A program made the translations under genes and the position numbers. DNA of 35,252 bases from Ferroacidibacillus organovorans (GTDB taxonomy: Bacteria; Bacillota; Bacilli; Alicyclobacillales; SLC66), in the NCBI RefSeq assembly GCF_001642725.1, contig NZ_LSUQ01000027.1, forward strand, positions 1 through 35,252, in the 5' to 3' direction. Position 1 is the first letter of the stretch, and the number at the start of each line of letters is the position of its first letter. Positions 1 through 8,822 of this stretch are shown here, one piece after another. The notes beneath the pieces were generated by a model that did not search any database, was not told the origin of the DNA, and saw only the letters and a program-made list of their open reading frames with translations.

Positions 1-1080
1 CCAAAGCTCTGCACGTCAGACTATTTTGGTATTCTCTGTTCGGGGTGTCTACTCTATTGACTTAATATCATATAAAAAATCTTCCGGGAAGAAAGACAGA
101 CATGAAAGATGCTGAATGGATTGCCAAGCTTCTGAGATCCGGATTAATCGAAGGAAGCTTTGTTCCTTCTGAAGAAGTTCGTGATCTTCGCGATCTTACG
201 AGATACAGAAAGAAGTTGGTTTATCAAGCGACCTCTGAGAAAAATCGAATTCACCGTATACTTCAAGATGCAAACATTAAGCTTACATCGTACATGTCAG
301 ATGTCTTTGGAAAATCTGGTCGTCTACTTCTACAAAGACTTGTCAATGGAGAAGTAATCACTTTGGAATTCTTAGAAGAGAATATGAAGGGTCCGTTGAA
401 GCAGAAATCTAATCAATTACTCCAGTCTCTTCAAGGTCGGTTGCGTTCGCATCATGTGGAGATGATTCGTTTCTCATGGGATCACCTTGTCTACATTGAA
501 CAAACCATCAAGCAAATCGATCTTCGAATTTACCTTAGGTTAGAAAGTCGAAGAGAGTCTGTTGAACTGCTCACGACAATTCCTGGAATAAATGAGCAAG
601 CCGCCTCAATCATTATTGCAGAAATCGGTACAGATATGAGCCAATTTAAGAGTGAACACCACTTGGCTGCATGGGCTGGCGTGTGTCCGGGAAATTACGA
701 AAGCGCTGGAAAAAAGAAACGCGCAAGAGTGAGATCCGGTAATAGCCTGTTAAAGGCAATACTTTGTGAATGCGCGTGGGCTGCATCACGAACTCGAAAT
801 ACACGATTATCTGCTCGATATTGGGCTCTGGTTAAGCGCATGGGTAAGAAAAAAGCATTAGTTGCTTTAGCTCATACGCTTCTTAAAATTAGCTACCATG
901 TTTTGCTAAAAAGGCAATCTTATATTGAACTCGGTGTGGAGTATCTCGAACAGTTTCAGATGCGAAGGGAAAAACAGACGGAGACCCATATGATCCAGTT
1001 GCTTGAGGCGAAGGGTTTTCTTGTTACGAAGGCTTGTTAAAGATTCCTGTTGATATCTATGTGCCTATTGCATTTTCGTA
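1..1080 (+). mobile_element. IS110-family insertion element, 3' part (left end outside window)
   Basis: The window opens inside this element. Its transposase reads rightward and ends at 1040. The element appears to stop near 1080, where the reverse strand switches into clear cytochrome oxidase subunit I codons. The DNA is visibly more AT-rich than the genes to its right. IS110 elements characteristically lack terminal inverted repeats, and none is seen at this edge, so the boundary is placed only by where subunit I homology ends (give or take a few bases). Only about 40 nt lie between the transposase stop and the junction, so a bridge-RNA-type non-coding end, if present, would be on the left, outside the window. 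Confidence 0.7.
66..1040 (+). pseudogene. IS110-family transposase, N-terminally truncated or frame-broken
   Basis: The C-terminal two thirds of an IS110 transposase. The first ATG is at 102, but homologous sequence continues in frame back to 66 (HIKN-PGRKTD-KDAEW), where a stop at 63-65 interrupts it. KTDMKD supplies the last two acidic residues of the RuvC-like DEDD site. The first two acidic residues would lie further upstream and are not readable in this frame. The C-terminal Tnp20-type domain is present: TTIPGINEQAASIIIAEIG, then AAWAGVCPGNYESAGKKK with the Ser expected to be catalytic, then SGNSLLKAILCECAW. The family is usually about 400 residues; this open part is about 324. The stop/frame problem at 63-65 suggests an inactive copy, unless the upstream part is joined by a frameshift. 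Family assignment is secure; activity is not. Confidence 0.75.
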
Positions 1081-1804
1081 AAAAAATCTGGCCTGAAGGA
1101 TCTTGGGCCGCCAGTGGTTCATATCCCCACAGTCCAGCGGTCGATCCGCCATACATAGGAATGAGAAGAATGGTGATCACCCCGGCCGGGTACATCCAGA
1201 ACGCAATTCCGCCAAGGCGCGGATACATGCGCTCTCGGGCGCCGATCATCAACGGCACTACGTAGTTTCCAAGTCCGCCGACAAATCCGACTACGGCCAC
1301 TCCGAGCAACATCAGCACACCGTGCATCGTGACGGCTGAGAGATACCAGACATCGCCGCCAAAGACGTTGTTGTTGCTCCCCATGAGCTGCGCGCGCATG
1401 CCCATGGCAATCAGACCTGCGATACCGAATGTGGCGACAGACCCAACCATATACTGGATCCCGACCACCTTGTTATCCAGGCTGAGTTCGAAATACCGCC
1501 GCCATCCACGGGACGCTACAAACGTATTTGGCAGTCCGAGCCACGGCCGGACGATCGACTCAAAACCGCCTACCCCGAGAAGCCACCCTACAAACCCTAG
1601 TAGCCAACCGACCGTCACGGCTGGTTCTGTGATGAATGGAGGATTGGCTCCAGGAAAGCGATCCACCAGAAACATGAAACACGTTCCAATAAGAAATCCT
1701 ATCCCCGCCCACAAAAATCCGCGCGCGACCGGCGGCATGGGAGCGCGCCTTCGCGTCGCCCGTGATCCGCCGGGCACAGCCAGTGTTGCACTGTTTTGCG
1801 CCAT
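1037..1804 (-). pseudogene. Heme-copper oxidase subunit I, truncated by the IS110 element
   Basis: The N-terminal part of cytochrome c/quinol oxidase subunit I, the membrane subunit carrying the hemes and CuB. Two extra N-terminal hydrophobic segments (about residues 29-48 and 63-80) precede the core. VTMHG near residue 161 gives one axial histidine of the low-spin heme, followed by GNYVVPLMIG and AFWMYPAG helices. Real homology stops after QDPSGQIF (near 1082). The last 14 residues and the stop at 1037 come from IS DNA. Subunit I is normally over 500 residues, so the CuB/high-spin heme ligands, proton channels and second low-spin heme ligand are missing and the product cannot be functional. 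It lies 56 nt after subunit II and would be cotranscribed. The remainder of the gene may lie to the left of the IS, outside the window. Confidence 0.85.
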
Positions 1805-1860
1805 TCTCCTTCGACCCCTCTCTATCCGCGACGTTGCGCGCGGTCACTGAATCTGGCTGA

Positions 1861-2667
1861 TTATGAGTTCTGGTTAGAAACTTGCGTCTTTTCCTGCGCC
1901 ACCCATATTGCAAACGCTTGCGGTGAAACGACTTCAACATCGGCTTCCATATAGGAGTGTCCCGCTCCGCAAAGTTGTGCGCACTGCAGGCGAACCATCG
2001 GATTGGCGGCCGTCGAAGTGATCTGCGTCGGGGTGATATAGAGATCGCGCGTGATACCAGGGATGATGTCTGCCTTAATACCCCACGCTGGAACGTAAAA
2101 TGAGTGCGTTACGTCGAGGCTGTTCATCACAAACTTGATCTCGCGTCCGGCAGGAACCACAAGCACGTCACGTCCATTCGTCTTGGTGTTCATCGGCAAG
2201 CCGTACTGAGGATACCCAAAGCGAAACTGACATTGCCGAGCCTGGACATTGACCACGAGTGCCCCGTGGTTCCAAGGTGGAAGGCCGTATGCCCAGAGTT
2301 GTTCCATACCCGAGAGATCAGGATGGAGAAAAAAAGTCATGACGATGGCGATGGTGAGCACCATCCAACTTCGCTGAAAGAGCAGATTGCTCTGGTTCTG
2401 CACCGGGCTGTCCCCTGTCTCTCCTGCGCGCTGTCTGAATCTCACCGCGGCAAAAGCCATAAACAAAATGATGAAAACGAACAGTATGACCGAAACGTAA
2501 ACCAGGGTGTCGAAAGCGTCGAGGGACACACCTCCCTGCAGGGAAGCCACATAATAGTACGGGGTGTGAATCACCCAGAGGTGGGCAAAGTATTCAAGTA
2601 TTGCAGAAAAAAAAAGCCACAGACCAACGAACATCGAAATATTTCTGCCGTTTTGGACGCGCTCCAT
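1861..2667 (-). CDS. Heme-copper oxidase subunit II with CuA centre
   Basis: The electron-entry subunit of a cytochrome oxidase. Three hydrophobic segments (about residues 11-33, 52-76 and 100-114 of the 268-residue form) are followed by an extracytoplasmic cupredoxin domain. The CuA ligands are all present: His in DVTHSF, then CAQLCGAGHSYM (two Cys, His, Met; the middle Glu of the usual CSEIC is Gln, which ligates through its backbone). In the aromatic patch normally reading QWxWxF, this protein has ARQCQFRFGYP, so both tryptophans used for docking and entry of electrons from cytochrome c are replaced. The ATG at 2667 is chosen because AGGAG lies 6 nt upstream; an earlier ATG at 2697 overlaps the upstream stop as ATGA. 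The partner subunit I gene is broken by an IS. Confidence 0.88.
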   Translation of the reverse strand: MERVQNGRNISMFVGLWLFFSAILEYFAHLWVIHTPYYYVASLQGGVSLDAFDTLVYVSVILFVFIILFMAFAAVRFRQRAGETGDSPVQNQSNLLFQRSWMVLTIAIVMTFFLHPDLSGMEQLWAYGLPPWNHGALVVNVQARQCQFRFGYPQYGLPMNTKTNGRDVLVVPAGREIKFVMNSLDVTHSFYVPAWGIKADIIPGITRDLYITPTQITSTAANPMVRLQCAQLCGAGHSYMEADVEVVSPQAFAIWVAQEKTQVSNQNS

Positions 2668-2693
2668 ACGCCGCTCCTCTCCTTCTTTCGCCG

Positions 2694-3359
2694 TCATGCT
2701 CGCACGATATTGATCGTGCCGCGCATTCCCATCCGATAGTGTTCATAGTGTTGTACAAAGCATCCATAATGCCAAAGTCCCGGCTTGTCCGGAACGGTGA
2801 AGGTGATGTCAACGGCGCCATCAGGATTCAACGTCGGGCTGAAATTCCCTCCGTCCGCGATGTTGTAGAGCGATTTTTGCCCCTCATATGTGACGATGGC
2901 TTTGTTTGGCACAAAGTTATTCACATTGCGCGGATTGCTGAGTGTGACGTAAACACCGTCGAAGAAATCCTCCGCGAACCCGTCCTGCGTCTCTACTCCG
3001 AACACCGTGTTCTCGGTGTTTACATGGCGTCCCACCACCCACTCGTGATACTTTCCTGGGTGGGACTGACTGCGGTTACGAAAGGCGATGGTGATGCGAT
3101 CGCCAACCCGCCATTTCATGTAATTCGGGATGTAGTAATAGTCGAGCGCGTACAGCGGGATGTTTCCAGTTTCTACCTGCGACCCGAATATTTCACGCAT
3201 CGCGCGGGCAATCGTGGATCCGCCAAAGGTACCGATGAGGCCGGCAACTGTCACTGCGCCGACACTAAAAAGAAATTGGCGTCGGCTCCAGTCGGGTAGA
3301 TCCTGTGACCCCTGCGCAATCTCTTCACCTAATGCGTTTTTATTAGGTGTTTCAGCCAT
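2694..3359 (-). CDS. Tat-type exported cupredoxin (sulfocyanin-like blue copper protein)
   Basis: A 221-residue blue copper protein, first gene of the oxidase cluster. Residues 24-30 (WSRRQFL) followed by a hydrophobic stretch to about 46 form a twin-arginine-type signal or anchor with no obvious signal peptidase site, so the mature protein may stay membrane-anchored. The C-terminal type 1 copper motif is clear: GLWHYGC200, H204 and M210 or M212 (spacing C-x3-H-x5/7-M). The N-terminal histidine ligand would be H100 or H105 in the SHPGKYHEW loop. The RBS AGGTGG lies 7 nt before the ATG. Such proteins carry electrons outside the membrane, and in acidophilic iron or sulfur oxidisers sulfocyanins sit beside oxidases. 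Gene order suggests it donates electrons to the adjacent CuA subunit; that role is inference. A nitrosocyanin-like or oxidase-associated subunit would be alternatives. Confidence 0.75.
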   Translation of the reverse strand: MAETPNKNALGEEIAQGSQDLPDWSRRQFLFSVGAVTVAGLIGTFGGSTIARAMREIFGSQVETGNIPLYALDYYYIPNYMKWRVGDRITIAFRNRSQSHPGKYHEWVVGRHVNTENTVFGVETQDGFAEDFFDGVYVTLSNPRNVNNFVPNKAIVTYEGQKSLYNIADGGNFSPTLNPDGAVDITFTVPDKPGLWHYGCFVQHYEHYRMGMRGTINIVRA

Positions 3360-3952: not shown

Positions 3953-5212
3953 TCATGTTCGCGTCTGACCTCGTCCGTGTATCAGATATTGATAACTCGT
4001 CAATTCGCGGAGACCCATGGGGCCTCGCGCGTGCATTTTTTGCGTCGAGATCCCGATTTCCGCACCAAATCCGAACTCGAAGCCGTCTGTAAAACGCGTG
4101 GACGCGTTGTGGTACACGGCCGCCGCATCTACGTTCGTCAAAAAATAGTCGGCCGCATCAGGGTCTTCCGTGACAATCGCTTCGGAGTGGTTTGTCCCGT
4201 AGGTCTCGATGTGCGCTACTGCTTCCTCTACCGAATCGACAACTCGCACGGCGAGGATGTCATTGAGAAACTCTTCTTGATAATCTGCCTCTGTTGCCCG
4301 TTTGATCTTTGAATAGGAATCGCTGAATTTACTGAAGGATGTTTCGCAAAGTCGCAGTTCAACGTTCGCTTGCGACAAGTCGCTCAGGATTCGCGGCAAA
4401 AGGGTGTCTACACACGCGCGGTGAATAAGCAGTGTTTCGGCAGCGTTACACACTGACGGTCGAGAACATTTTGCATTGTGAACGATTGAGATCGCCATTT
4501 CTTGATTGGCGAATTGATCGACGTAAATATGACAGTTACCGACACCCGTTTCAATCACCGGAACGCGAGCGGTCTCAACGACGCGTCTGATCAGTTCGGC
4601 GCCGCCTCGGGGAATGGCTAGATCAACCAAACCGCGAAGTTTTAGAAGTTCGTCAATGCTATTACGATCCGGATCATCGACAAATTGAATCGTTTCACTA
4701 GGAATGGATGTTCCTTCAAGTGCGCGTTTCATCGATTGAATAAGCGCTTTATTCGTTTGCATCGCGTCTGTTCCACCCCGCAACACGACAGCATTTCCTG
4801 ATTTGAGCGCGAGAACTGCCGCGTCTACGGTGACGTTTGGACGCGACTCATAAACAATGGCGAGAACTCCGAATGGAACGCGCACTTTTTTTATCTGCAT
4901 GCCGTTTGCGTGATCAATCTGTTCAATGCACTCACCCACAGGGTCATCAAGCGCTGCGACATGGTGCACGCCCTTGATGATCTCCTGTAAGCGCGCGTTA
5001 TGTAGGGTCAGTCGATCGACACGATGAGGAGGAACACCACGTTTTAGTGCCTGCTCCACGTCGCGCTGATTTGCCTCAAACAGTGCGTTGCGATCTTGAA
5101 ATAACGCGTTTGCGATTGTTTCAAGCGCCTCATTTTTTTGTTCAGATGTACAGCGTCGCAAAATCCGCGCCGACTGTTTGGCTGTGCGAGCCAGCGACTT
5201 GACGTCACACAC
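3953..5212 (-). CDS. proA: Glutamate-5-semialdehyde dehydrogenase (gamma-glutamyl phosphate reductase)
   Basis: The second enzyme of proline synthesis: NADPH-dependent reduction of gamma-glutamyl phosphate to glutamate semialdehyde in the cytoplasm. An aldehyde-dehydrogenase-fold protein of 419 residues, the family length. VRVPFGVLAIVYESRPNV and LALKSGNAVVLRGG form the cofactor-binding part. KCSRPSVCNAAETLLIHR carries the catalytic cysteine, and the C-terminal FGFGAEIGISTQKMHARGP is the usual signature. The start is a GTG at 5212 with GGAG 8 nt upstream, overlapping the proB stop by 8 nt; an ATG at 5230 has no ribosome site. Translational coupling to proB fits joint production of the two partners. 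Confidence 0.95.
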   Translation of the reverse strand: MCDVKSLARTAKQSARILRRCTSEQKNEALETIANALFQDRNALFEANQRDVEQALKRGVPPHRVDRLTLHNARLQEIIKGVHHVAALDDPVGECIEQIDHANGMQIKKVRVPFGVLAIVYESRPNVTVDAAVLALKSGNAVVLRGGTDAMQTNKALIQSMKRALEGTSIPSETIQFVDDPDRNSIDELLKLRGLVDLAIPRGGAELIRRVVETARVPVIETGVGNCHIYVDQFANQEMAISIVHNAKCSRPSVCNAAETLLIHRACVDTLLPRILSDLSQANVELRLCETSFSKFSDSYSKIKRATEADYQEEFLNDILAVRVVDSVEEAVAHIETYGTNHSEAIVTEDPDAADYFLTNVDAAAVYHNASTRFTDGFEFGFGAEIGISTQKMHARGPMGLRELTSYQYLIHGRGQTRT

Positions 5213-6308
5213 TGGAATCACTCCGTTCATCAGAAAACAACACGAGATGGTTGCGATGAATCACTTCAACCTGTGCCGCAGATTTTCGATCAAGAAGCAG
5301 TGTGATGTCACGCGAAGCATAGTTCGTTCTTCCCCGGCCAATGCGCTCCCCTTTAAAACTCACATCGATCACGGAGCCAGTTTCAAAATCCCCCTCTACG
5401 TGAAGGATGCCCGGCATGAGCAGGCTGGCCTTTTTATTGACGAGCGCATCGCGTGCGCCAGAGTCAACGTCTACGCGTCCCATCGAACGAGAAGAATGCC
5501 TTAACCATGCGCGTTTTGCGCCAAGTCCTGGCGAGTGCGATGAAAAGCGCGTGCCGAAGTGGTCGTTTGTCAAAAGTTCAAGCAAGTGATTTGCGTGTTG
5601 AATGCTGGCGATGACCGCCTCGATTCCAGCAGATGTGACGATTTGAGCGGCTGTCAGTTTTGTTTTCATACCGCCTGTGCCTGATACAGACCCGGCCTGT
5701 CCGGCGCGCATAAGGATGTCTTCATCAATTCGATGAACGAGCGGTATTCGCTTTGCGTGAGGATCTTTGCGCGGATCAGACGTGTACAACCCGTCGCGAT
5801 CCGTCAAAAGGATCATGGCGTCAGCTTCCGTTAAGAGACTGACATGTGCCGCGAGCGAATCGTTATCCCCGAGGCGTATTTCGTCAATTGATACAGAGTC
5901 ATTTTCGTTCACGATCGGAATGACGTGATGCGAGAGAAGCGTCTCAAACGTATTTCTTACATGGAGATAGCGACGACGGTCATCGAGATCGGATCGGGTG
6001 AGAAGAATCTGCGCGATGTTTTGGTCATAGCGATCAAACTCCGTCTGATAGAGGGAGAGCAGCTTCCCCTGCCCCACCGCCGCTGCCGCTTGTTTTTCTG
6101 GCATCGTCATCGTGGCGCGGGACCAGCCGAGAATTCCGAGTCCAGCGCCGACCGCGCCGGAGGATACGAGCACGATGCGCGCATTCGTTTCTCGCTTGAA
6201 TTTCATCAATGAATCGACCACATGTTGGAGTTTCTCGTGGCTTAAAATTCCTTGCTCGTCCGTAAGACTGCTCGTTCCCACCTTCACGACGATACGTTTC
6301 CATCTCAT
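5205..6308 (-). CDS. proB: Glutamate 5-kinase with C-terminal PUA domain
   Basis: Phosphorylates glutamate to gamma-glutamyl phosphate, the committed step of proline synthesis. The amino acid kinase domain starts with RIVVKVGTSSLTD, followed by VSSGAVGAGLGILG, NENDSVSIDEIRLGDND (substrate loop), LLTDRDGLYTSDPRKDP and SGTGGMKTKLTAAQI. The last 80 residues or so form a PUA domain (KASLLMPGILHVEGDF, SRDITLLL), as in the full-length enzyme. It is 367 residues long. The ATG at 6308 is preferred because AGGTAGGG lies about 11 nt upstream; an in-frame GTG at 6320 is too close to that site. The gene is 35 nt after dnaD and overlaps proA. Feedback inhibition by proline is typical of the family but cannot be read here. 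Confidence 0.95.
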   Translation of the reverse strand: MRWKRIVVKVGTSSLTDEQGILSHEKLQHVVDSLMKFKRETNARIVLVSSGAVGAGLGILGWSRATMTMPEKQAAAAVGQGKLLSLYQTEFDRYDQNIAQILLTRSDLDDRRRYLHVRNTFETLLSHHVIPIVNENDSVSIDEIRLGDNDSLAAHVSLLTEADAMILLTDRDGLYTSDPRKDPHAKRIPLVHRIDEDILMRAGQAGSVSGTGGMKTKLTAAQIVTSAGIEAVIASIQHANHLLELLTNDHFGTRFSSHSPGLGAKRAWLRHSSRSMGRVDVDSGARDALVNKKASLLMPGILHVEGDFETGSVIDVSFKGERIGRGRTNYASRDITLLLDRKSAAQVEVIHRNHLVLFSDERSDSSV

Positions 6309-6343
6309 AGCGATTGGCACCCTACCTTAACATACAATGTCTG

Positions 6344-7081
6344 CTACTTCGTTGTATCAGACCTTGCGGCAGACGTTTCTGCGCGATTCTGGTACAGTTC
6401 GTAGAATCGCTCGTATTTGCCAGGTTGAGCGGCCGGCACCACGCGAGGCGTTGATTTTGTCGCTTGCGTTGTCTTCTGCGCGGTTCGCTCTTTTTCTGGC
6501 TCCGTTCGTTTTCGATACGTTTTGCGATACTCGCTCAACTGCTTTTCGCTCTTGATATTCGCTCGGGCCCAGCCTCGTAAAATCGTGTCGACATAGCGGA
6601 AATTGAACACGCCAGAGAGGACAGATTCACGAAGCGCTTCAATAATCAACCACTCGGGGTGCTCATCTTCACTGAGCCAGCGCGTGATCTGTTCATATTC
6701 GAGCGGAGAAAGCAAACGTCCAAACTCTTCTTCAAATCGAGTAAACACCGCGAGAGACGCTTGCTCTTCGTTATGCATGCCAATCATTCGCTCAAGGAGT
6801 GGCCGCACGCTGATCATGCGATCAACGTATTGAATATGCCCTTCTACAATCAAGCGTTGAATCGTTACGGCGATTTCATCTGCGGTGAGGCTCATTCGTT
6901 CCGCGAGTCGATCAAGGTCAGGGAAAGTATGGTCTACTTGCTGATAAGAAAGGATATGGATAATCACCATCATATCGACATCAGATAAGCCCAAAGCATT
7001 GTAGGTTGTTAGCAATTCATAGGGAAAATTGACATGACGTTGCTCCAAGGCATTGAGCGCGTGATCCAGGTATTTTTTCAT
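6344..7081 (-). CDS. dnaD: DNA replication initiation protein DnaD
   Basis: A primosome protein of low-GC Gram-positives that works with DnaB and DnaI to load the replicative helicase at oriC and at restarting forks. The N-terminal winged-helix oligomerisation domain spans about residues 30-100 (LSDVDMMVIIHILSYQQVDH). The C-terminal DDBH2 domain (about 125-190) contains the conserved YVDTILRGW (YxxxIxxxW) motif. The basic tail rich in K, R, T and E is expected for DNA binding. It is 245 residues. The ATG at 7081 has GGAG 8 nt upstream; an upstream in-frame start (7114) lacks one. In Bacillus dnaD follows asnS and precedes nth. Here it keeps asnS but is followed by proB, and is separated from asnS by a repeat patch. 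Confidence 0.93.
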   Translation of the reverse strand: MKKYLDHALNALEQRHVNFPYELLTTYNALGLSDVDMMVIIHILSYQQVDHTFPDLDRLAERMSLTADEIAVTIQRLIVEGHIQYVDRMISVRPLLERMIGMHNEEQASLAVFTRFEEEFGRLLSPLEYEQITRWLSEDEHPEWLIIEALRESVLSGVFNFRYVDTILRGWARANIKSEKQLSEYRKTYRKRTEPEKERTAQKTTQATKSTPRVVPAAQPGKYERFYELYQNRAETSAARSDTTK

Positions 7082-7104
7082 CGCATGCGCTCCTTCCTTA
7101 AGCA

Positions 7105-7113
7105 AGTATACCA
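7105..7113 (-). promoter_or_regulatory. Possible extended -10 promoter for dnaD
   Basis: The minus strand reads TGGTATACT here (TGn plus TATACT), 24 nt before the dnaD start, with no good -35. It could let dnaD-proBA be transcribed separately from asnS. The match is short and could be chance. Confidence 0.3.
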
Positions 7114-7132
7114 TTCTCCCATCTGTTCTGGG

Positions 7133-7148
7133 ATTCCTCTTTTAGAGG
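7133..7148. repeat. Small perfect hairpin at the edge of the repeat patch
   Basis: TTCCTC, a TTTTA loop, then GAGGAA. It overlaps the first bases of the large repeat and partly repeats its AGAGGAA edge. It lies between asnS and dnaD and could mark a repeat boundary or RNA processing site. Confidence 0.4.
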
Positions 7149-7484
7149 AAGTTCAAAGAGAAGTCAGAACTCCTCTGCGCATTGGTGTGTCAGCGTCAAA
7201 AATACTCCCTCACGTACGTAAATGTACGCTGTGTACGCATTTTTCGACTCGCTTCCTGCCACTGCTTGATTCTTACCTGACTCCTCTTTGAACGCTCAAG
7301 ATGAGAGGAAGTTCAAAGAGAAGTCAGAACTCCTCTGCGCATTGGTGTGTCAGCGTCAAAAATGTTCCCTCACGTACGTAAATGTACGCTGCGTACACAT
7401 TTTTCGACTCGCTTCCTGCCACTGCTTGATTCTTACCTGACTCCTCTGCGCATTGGTGTGTCAGCGTCAAAAATGCTCCCTCAC
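7144..7484. repeat. Intergenic repeat cluster: 160-bp unit, second copy, third partial copy
   Basis: Copy 1 (7144-7303) and copy 2 (starting 7304) match almost base for base over about 144 nt, differing at only a few positions. At 7447 copy 2 runs, through a shared CTCCTCT, straight back into the unit's GCGCATTGG segment, giving a third copy of about 44 nt ending at 7484. Each full unit begins with an imperfect dyad, AGAGGAAGTTC to GAACTCCTCT, that can fold into a hairpin. It also contains CGTACGTAAATGTACG, a smaller dyad. No reading frame runs through the copies without stops. The patch fills the asnS-dnaD gap within an otherwise same-strand run. It looks like a dispersed non-coding repeat element that has duplicated by recombination at the CTCCTCT word. 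Confidence 0.85.
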
Positions 7485-7488
7485 CCAC

Positions 7489-8781
7489 TTAGGGGTAGAG
7501 GCGGTACAACAGACGCGGAAACGGGATGGTTTCTCGAACATGGTCAAGGCCACAGATCCACGCAACGGTCCGTTCGAGTCCGAGTCCGAACCCGGAGTGT
7601 GGCACGGTGCCGTACGTCCTTAAATCTAGGTACCAGGCATACGCTTCTTTGGAGAGATCGTGTTCTTCAAATCGTTTTATGAGCAGTTCAGGATCGTCAA
7701 TCCGTTGTGAACCACCAATGATTTCACCGTATCCCTCAGGCGCCAACAGGTCTGCGCAAAGTACAACTTCAGGACGAGCAGGATCTGGTTTCATATAAAA
7801 AGCTTTCAGCGATGTAGGATAGCGTTCGATAAAAACAGGTCGATCATAAGCCTCGGCGATTTTTGTCTCATCTGGCGCGCCAAAGTCGTCACCCCACGTA
7901 AAATCTTGACCAGTCGATTGCAAAAAAGCAACCGCCTCGTCGTAAGAGATGCGTGGAAAGGGCGCTTTGATTTGTTCCAGTTTTGACGTGTCTCGCCCGA
8001 TGGTGCGCAGTTCTTGCTCACAGTGGCTTAGGACGTGCTGCATAATCGCGCAAATCAATGCCTCTTGAATTGCGACACTCTCGTCGTGTTCTACATAAGC
8101 CATCTCTGGTTCAATCATCCAAAACTCGATAAGATGGCGGCGAGTTTTCGATTTTTCAGCACGGAATGTAGGGCCAAAGGAGTATACGCGCCCGAGCGCC
8201 ATCGCTGCTGCTTCCATGTAGAGTTGACCGCTCTGTGTTAAAAACGCATCCTCATCAAAATAGGAAGTGTGAAAAAGTGTGGTTGTTCCTTCACACGACG
8301 AAGGTGTGAGAATGGGTGGATCCACTTGGGTGAATTCATGACTGTCAAGAAACTGGCGAATCGCGCGAATGATCTCGGCGCGAATCTTTAAAATGGCTCG
8401 TTGTCTTGGGGCGCGCAGCCAGAGATGGCGCTGATCCATGAGGAAATCAACGCCGTGTTCTTTAGGCGTAATTGGGTAATCGTGTGTCAGCGAGACGAGT
8501 TCGATATCTCTGACTTGAAGCTCAACACCGTTTTTTGCACGCTGATCAGTCTGAACGACGCCGTGAACAATGATGGCGCTCTCTTGTGTCAAGGATTGCG
8601 CTAAAGCAAAGATATCCTCTGACTCGTCTTCTTTTGCAAGAACGCCTTGAACAAAACCGCTGCCGTCGCGAAGTTGGAGAAAAATGATCTTTCCAGAAGA
8701 TCGTTTTTGATGAAGCCACCCTTTGATCGTTACGGTTTCCCCTAAATGATCACTCAATGATGCAATGCGAACTACTGCCAA
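7489..8781 (-). CDS. asnS: Asparaginyl-tRNA synthetase
   Basis: Charges tRNA-Asn with asparagine. It has an N-terminal OB-fold anticodon-binding domain ([27 protein letters not shown]) and a class IIb catalytic core. Motif 2 region is [24 protein letters not shown], motif 3 is [15 protein letters not shown], and the glutamine/asparagine-type signature is favoured over aspartyl by overall sequence and by its place next to dnaD. With a TTG start at 8781 (GAGGAG 9 nt upstream) it is 430 residues, exactly the common Bacillus length; a GTG at 8811 has no ribosome site. A predicted promoter lies 42-70 nt upstream. In Bacillus ypmB-aspB-asnS-dnaD is the order; aspB is replaced here by the FtsH-like pair. 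Confidence 0.93.
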
Positions 8782-8822
8782 CGCAATCGTCTCCTCTATA
8801 CACTCACTCACATATCATTGCT

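Follow-up and report, generated by a model that had tools for sequence, protein, structure and literature searches.

The acoP-coxB-coxA cluster and its interrupted coxA gene

The window considered here is the whole of a 35,252-nucleotide stretch of the Ferroacidibacillus organovorans genome, corresponding to contig NZ_LSUQ01000027.1 (positions 1 to 35,252, forward strand). The following features were assigned near its start:

1..101, no strand: start of the contig, where an IS3-type element probably has its right end (70-base identity with the end of contig C39)
102..1040, + strand: remnant of an IS110-family transposase, lying within coxA (NCBIfam NF033542 positions 96-342; Pfam PF02371/PF01548)
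1078..1804, - strand: coxA, N-terminal part only (COX1 profile positions 2-119)
1861..2667, - strand: coxB, encoding the CuA subunit II, 268 aa (Pfam COX2, NCBIfam CoxB)
1948..1983, - strand: CuA binding motif CAQLCGAGHSYM, from the sequence
2224..2226, - strand: TTT codon (Phe) in place of the second Trp (the congener likewise has Phe; the remaining 103 CoxB proteins surveyed have Trp)
2230..2232, - strand: TGT codon (Cys), corresponding to Trp121 of Paracoccus and bovine Trp104 (TGG in the congener)
2694..3359, - strand: acoP-like cupredoxin gene, 221 aa (phmmer and copper ligands)

The cupredoxin presents a twin-arginine-type N-terminus (SRRQFLFSVGAVTVAGL). In phmmer searches, it matched the AcoP structure 7z3b in two stretches that include both conserved regions (E=2.3e-20) and the AcoP structure 7z3f with a similar value (~2e-20), while a Pfam search with the product of 3359-2694 (-) matched no family. 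All four copper ligands, namely, H105, C200, H207 and M212, are present, and alignment revealed these ligands and their C-X6-H-X4-M spacing, which is that of the AcoP copper site (PMC4059628), to be invariant across 19 homologues. The gene is found directly upstream of coxB and coxA, with the order acoP-coxB-coxA being likewise seen in relatives. Given the ligands, the similarity to the characterised protein and the oxidase gene cluster, the predicted product is assigned as an AcoP homologue. The initial annotation was thus right in placing a cupredoxin gene immediately before that of the CuA subunit; of its term 'blue copper protein', the cupredoxin identity stands but the blue type may not, as characterised AcoP contains a green type-1.5 rather than a classic blue copper site (PMC4059628).

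The longest open frame for coxB spans 2697-1861 (-). The true start is, however, probably found at 2667 (MERVQN), because the congener (locus L076) carries a stop in the preceding stretch. The product, which reads VNVQARQCQFRFGYPQYG, is recognised by the COX2 model of Pfam (E=5e-12) and the CoxB model of NCBIfam (E=2e-35), and its CuA ligands are intact, with the upstream His in DVTHSF being followed by CAQLCGAGHSYM (C-x3-C-x3-H-x2-M). The sequence ARQCQFRFGYP, described earlier as occupying the place where QWxWxF is usual, was read as such in frame 2697-1861 (-), with chance being no issue. In an alignment with solved structures, the Cys falls where QWxW has its first Trp (e.g., AFQWNWKFGYQ in 7rh6). 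The possibility that the FxFGYP stretch denotes a B-type (ba3) oxidase was rejected, given that subunit I best matches A-type models (CtaD_CoxA, E=1e-27) and that the window CoxB groups with AcoP-linked subunits in the tree.

The intact subunit I gene expected of a CuA-type heme-copper oxidase is missing from the window cluster, where coxA is split, a feature that the initial annotation had overlooked. The N-terminal part comprises about 242 codons homologous to the 646-aa CoxA of the congener, whose gene is intact and uninterrupted (L076:7277-9217), whereas a genome search located the C-terminal part, corresponding to profile positions of about 120-433, on contig C39 (L008:5827-7023 (-)). The two halves, on contigs C27 and C39, are collinear with the congener except for the insert, and the region of the congener genome contains coxA (646 aa), coxB, acoP, proA and proB in the same order with no insert. 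That insert spans window positions 1-1077 and L008:7048-8646, with the assembly breaking between the two. It contains the IS110-family remnant, which is without about 95 N-terminal residues, and, next to the C-terminal part of coxA on C39, two transposase frames of an IS3-type element (L008:7394-8574). The first 70 bases of the window are the last 70 of C39 and have no other exact copy in the assembly. Judging by the truncated transposase, the IS110 copy within coxA was apparently itself damaged by insertion of the IS3-type element. Because both halves of the gene abut insertion sequence DNA while the congener region has no insert, coxA, the catalytic subunit gene, is disrupted by insertion sequences.

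Elsewhere in the window, a 42-aa frame at 3834-3706 (-), MYGVFGGYTRWAVVFLIIFVLFFLFVPTYGYGTGAGGTAGAY, preceded by a Shine-Dalgarno-like AGGAGG and with no Pfam match, appears to encode a short membrane or sporulation peptide.

Tryptophan positions in AcoP-linked CoxB proteins

The same genome contains two further acoP-coxB-coxA clusters, on contigs C62 (L012) and C23 (L013). Their CoxB proteins read ARQWQWYFSYP and ARQWEWIFSYP, respectively, such that both Trp are kept. In each, a gene encoding a sulfocyanin-type (PF06525) lipoprotein lies directly upstream; no sulfocyanin gene is found at the corresponding site of the window cluster or of its congener orthologue. The gene after coxC (L008:5094-3784 (-), L012:6470-7651 and L105:6071-7219) encodes a conserved multi-membrane protein, about 360-390 aa in length, with the two copies scanned matching no Pfam family.

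AcoP neighbours were collected from 61 related genomes and from 74 named loci of Sulfobacillus, Alicyclobacillus, Sulfoacidibacillus, Acidithiobacillus, Acidihalobacter, a Rhodobacteraceae and a Deinococci bin, yielding 105 AcoP-adjacent CoxB proteins (79 at 97% identity), with possible double counting of some species between the collections. The first Trp is present in 104 of the 105, with Cys being found in the window alone, and the second in 103, with Phe being found only in the window and its congener. Acidithiobacillus CoxB, for example, retains Trp (VTAQQWKWTFSYP), as does L105, the closest relative outside the two species, at both positions (ARQWQWRFGYPQYG). The congener orthologue, 93% identical to the window CoxB and paired with the same AcoP, reads ARQWQFRFGYP, and presents the codon TGG where the window has TGT. 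Accordingly, the earlier proposal that loss of the docking Trp marks copper-to-copper delivery in place of cytochrome c did not survive the survey: the co-occurrence of Trp loss and the cupredoxin that was sought in relatives was not found, the window being the lone exception at the first Trp, and this loss is shared neither by the congener nor by the clusters on C62 and C23.

In the tree, the window, the congener and L105 proteins form one clade (support 1.0). Because L105 keeps both Trp and belongs to this clade, both residues are taken to be ancestral and their losses derived. By this comparison, Phe arose before the two species diverged and Cys on the terminal branch leading to the window, where it reads as one recent single-base change (TGG to TGT) private to this genome. 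At several CoxB positions that are near-invariant elsewhere, the clade departs from the remaining proteins (e.g., W to F, W to Y and E to I).

Selection on the window copy was considered by comparison with the congener. The dN/dS values obtained (acoP, 0.060; coxB, 0.070; coxA N-terminal part, 0.058; coxA C-terminal part, 0.026) are low, although those of acoP and coxB are somewhat higher than in the intact sister clusters (acoP 0.014 and coxB 0.030 in C62; acoP 0.048 and coxB 0.025 in C23). Because these window-congener values are still low, any relaxation would be recent or weak. When amino acid changes were polarised with L105, the ratio of changes on the window branch to those on the congener branch was 6:0 for acoP and 5:3 for coxB, together 11:3 toward the window branch (p=0.057, not significant alone), and 21:13 for all five parts (p=0.23). 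Such asymmetry is compatible with, and no proof of, a recent loss of constraint. Separately, when window positions 1078-3359 and 3953-8811 were both compared with L076, dS was about 0.5 in acoP, coxB and the N-terminal part of coxA, as opposed to 0.82 in the C-terminal part and 0.77-1.67 in neighbouring genes; the lower values may reflect either codon bias or recombination in the past.

Interpretation of the window cluster

In the intact copies, AcoP would be an exported, membrane-associated protein positioned beside the CuA domain of CoxB, where it would support the activity of the oxidase at low pH and, in all likelihood, serve as an electron source for CuA. In the window, with insertion sequences splitting coxA after about 242 codons, the cluster most likely makes no oxidase. 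There is good reason to believe that this is a redundant acoP-coxB-coxA-coxC cluster, the third in the genome of an acidophilic member of the Bacillota, homologous to the AcoP-aa3 oxidase module originally reported from Acidithiobacillus ferrooxidans and most likely dead as an oxidase, in which the private Cys does not reflect a redesigned docking site. The change of Trp to Cys, a private single-base substitution, would be most simply explained as tolerated or as the outcome of relaxed constraint, with the cluster most likely being a spare copy in the process of being lost.

An alternative is that the Cys is functional and recent, reflecting local retuning of CuA in one species, and that the insertion into coxA is limited to the sequenced strain. 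Although the acoP and coxB frames are uninterrupted, with dN/dS values of 0.06-0.07 denoting purifying selection, and the clade has changed at several near-invariant positions as described above, this is unlikely: most of these departures are found in the congener too, where the first Trp is intact, leaving Cys alone on a short branch, and two insertion sequences that appear to be nested argue against a very recent insertion. It is more improbable still, though conceivable for the Cys codon, that the Cys and/or the split in coxA are assembly or sequencing artefacts absent from the organism. The assembly is indeed a draft of 98 contigs, with a contig break exactly at the split and an N close to the junction on C39, yet each half of coxA runs directly into insertion sequence DNA on its own contig, and the assembly contains no further copy of the IS110 remnant through which contigs might have been wrongly joined. 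Finally, that the Trp of CoxB disappeared upon replacement of cytochrome c by the cupredoxin as donor to CuA can be largely dismissed as the least probable reading, despite acoP directly adjoining coxB and no PF00034/PF13442 cytochrome c being detected in this genome or that of the congener, seeing as coxA is broken and the first Trp is retained in all other sampled AcoP-linked CoxB proteins, including those of the congener, of the two other clusters of the same genome and of nine genomes with no detected cytochrome c.

The premise that this Trp is the known point of electron entry has been challenged by the crystal structure of a cytochrome c-oxidase complex, where Trp104 is not in tight interaction with cytochrome c, and in the W121Q mutant, CuA was probably disturbed (PMC5286356). 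Other oxidases also show variation here. Thermus caa3 (2yev) reads YQFWWDFHYP, with Phe at the Trp position, and Thermus ba3 subunit II has no Trp in the corresponding stretch. Both the caa3 and the ba3 oxidases of Thermus receive electrons from cytochrome c. In one relative (L065), in which CuA and a CxxCH heme c site are found in one protein, the stretch reads HQYWWEF. Because cytochrome c-fed oxidases can lack the Trp in question, its loss does not imply independence from cytochrome c. Nor can a missing docking Trp be read as a change of donor, given that Trp is kept even where genomes show no cytochrome c.

AcoP in genomes with no detected cytochrome c and comparison with known systems

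The distribution of cytochrome c was addressed in draft, not closed, genomes using PF00034 and PF13442 only. In F. organovorans (G000) and the congener (G001), neither profile found a match at E<=0.01, while controls and many relatives were positive. The same held true for 11 of the 19 AcoP-bearing genomes, nine of them at least 90% complete and all encoding CuA oxidases:

G000, G001, G004, G005, G009, G011, G015, G031, G052, G054, G055: AcoP and a CuA oxidase, no PF00034/PF13442 match

Trp is also kept in the AcoP-linked CoxB proteins of the nine other than F. organovorans and its congener. Simple replacement of cytochrome c by AcoP was rejected, as the remaining 8 of the 19 do have cytochrome c. 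When the best COX2 matches of relatives without AcoP were checked, the CuA motif was seen in 15 of 18 genomes with cytochrome c and in 0 of 18 without; the latter contain mostly a quinol-oxidase-type subunit, with five loci that were fetched showing neither motif. Such a distribution is consistent with AcoP taking the place of cytochrome c; kinship is a confounder, however, and AcoP is adjacent to a CuA gene by construction. Two other markers were discarded. A search for ResB, as a marker of cytochrome c maturation, carried no information, with negative results also being obtained for relatives that clearly have cytochrome c, and a Cytochrom_C_asm match on C19 was read as HemX, lying between hemA- and hemC-like frames, rather than as cytochrome c assembly.

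Thus, while the argument from Trp fails, a cupredoxin feeding CuA is plausible on other, indirect grounds, namely, the genomes with no detected cytochrome c and published AcoP data. AcoP copurifies with the oxidase and exchanges electrons with cytochrome c4, and a possible second electron entry has been proposed (PMC5982212). In a survey of Sulfobacillus, the AMDSBA1 genome was seen to encode cytochrome c oxidases and no annotated c-type cytochrome (PMC4378227); all three of its AcoP-linked CoxB proteins (L081, L084, L112) read ARQWEW. It is conceivable, if somewhat short of an even prospect, that in cytochrome c-free acidophilic Bacillota, AcoP, with sulfocyanin in many clusters, serves as sole donor to the 'cytochrome c oxidases', and that the Trp beside CuA is kept for copper-to-copper transfer and not for docking of cytochrome c. 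The 11 genomes listed above would allow the question of AcoP-to-CuA transfer (PMC5982212) to be tested with no competing donor, and this broader idea is better studied in intact clusters than in the window copy.

AcoP-oxidase gene pairs of this kind are already known. Acidithiobacillus ferrooxidans and its relatives present the same cupredoxin site (H, C-X6-H-X4-M) and the same order, on one strand, of acoP before coxB and coxA. There, however, cytochrome c genes precede acoP, with none being found in that place here, and CoxB keeps QWKW, unlike the window CoxB, while the window coxA is interrupted. In the family to which the window itself belongs, a sulfocyanin gene often lies just upstream of the cluster, unlike in the window copy. 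The CuA subunits of Thermus thermophilus caa3 and ba3, like the window CoxB, are without Trp at the Paracoccus 121 position; these subunits are cytochrome c-fed and are not close relatives of the window protein. AcoP of Sulfobacillus and Alicyclobacillus has been termed 'group II' (PMC4059628). Whereas both Trp are kept in all of the AcoP-linked clusters of these two genera and neither in the window, the gene order is the same, AcoP is about 42-59% identical, and CoxB is about 270 aa long.
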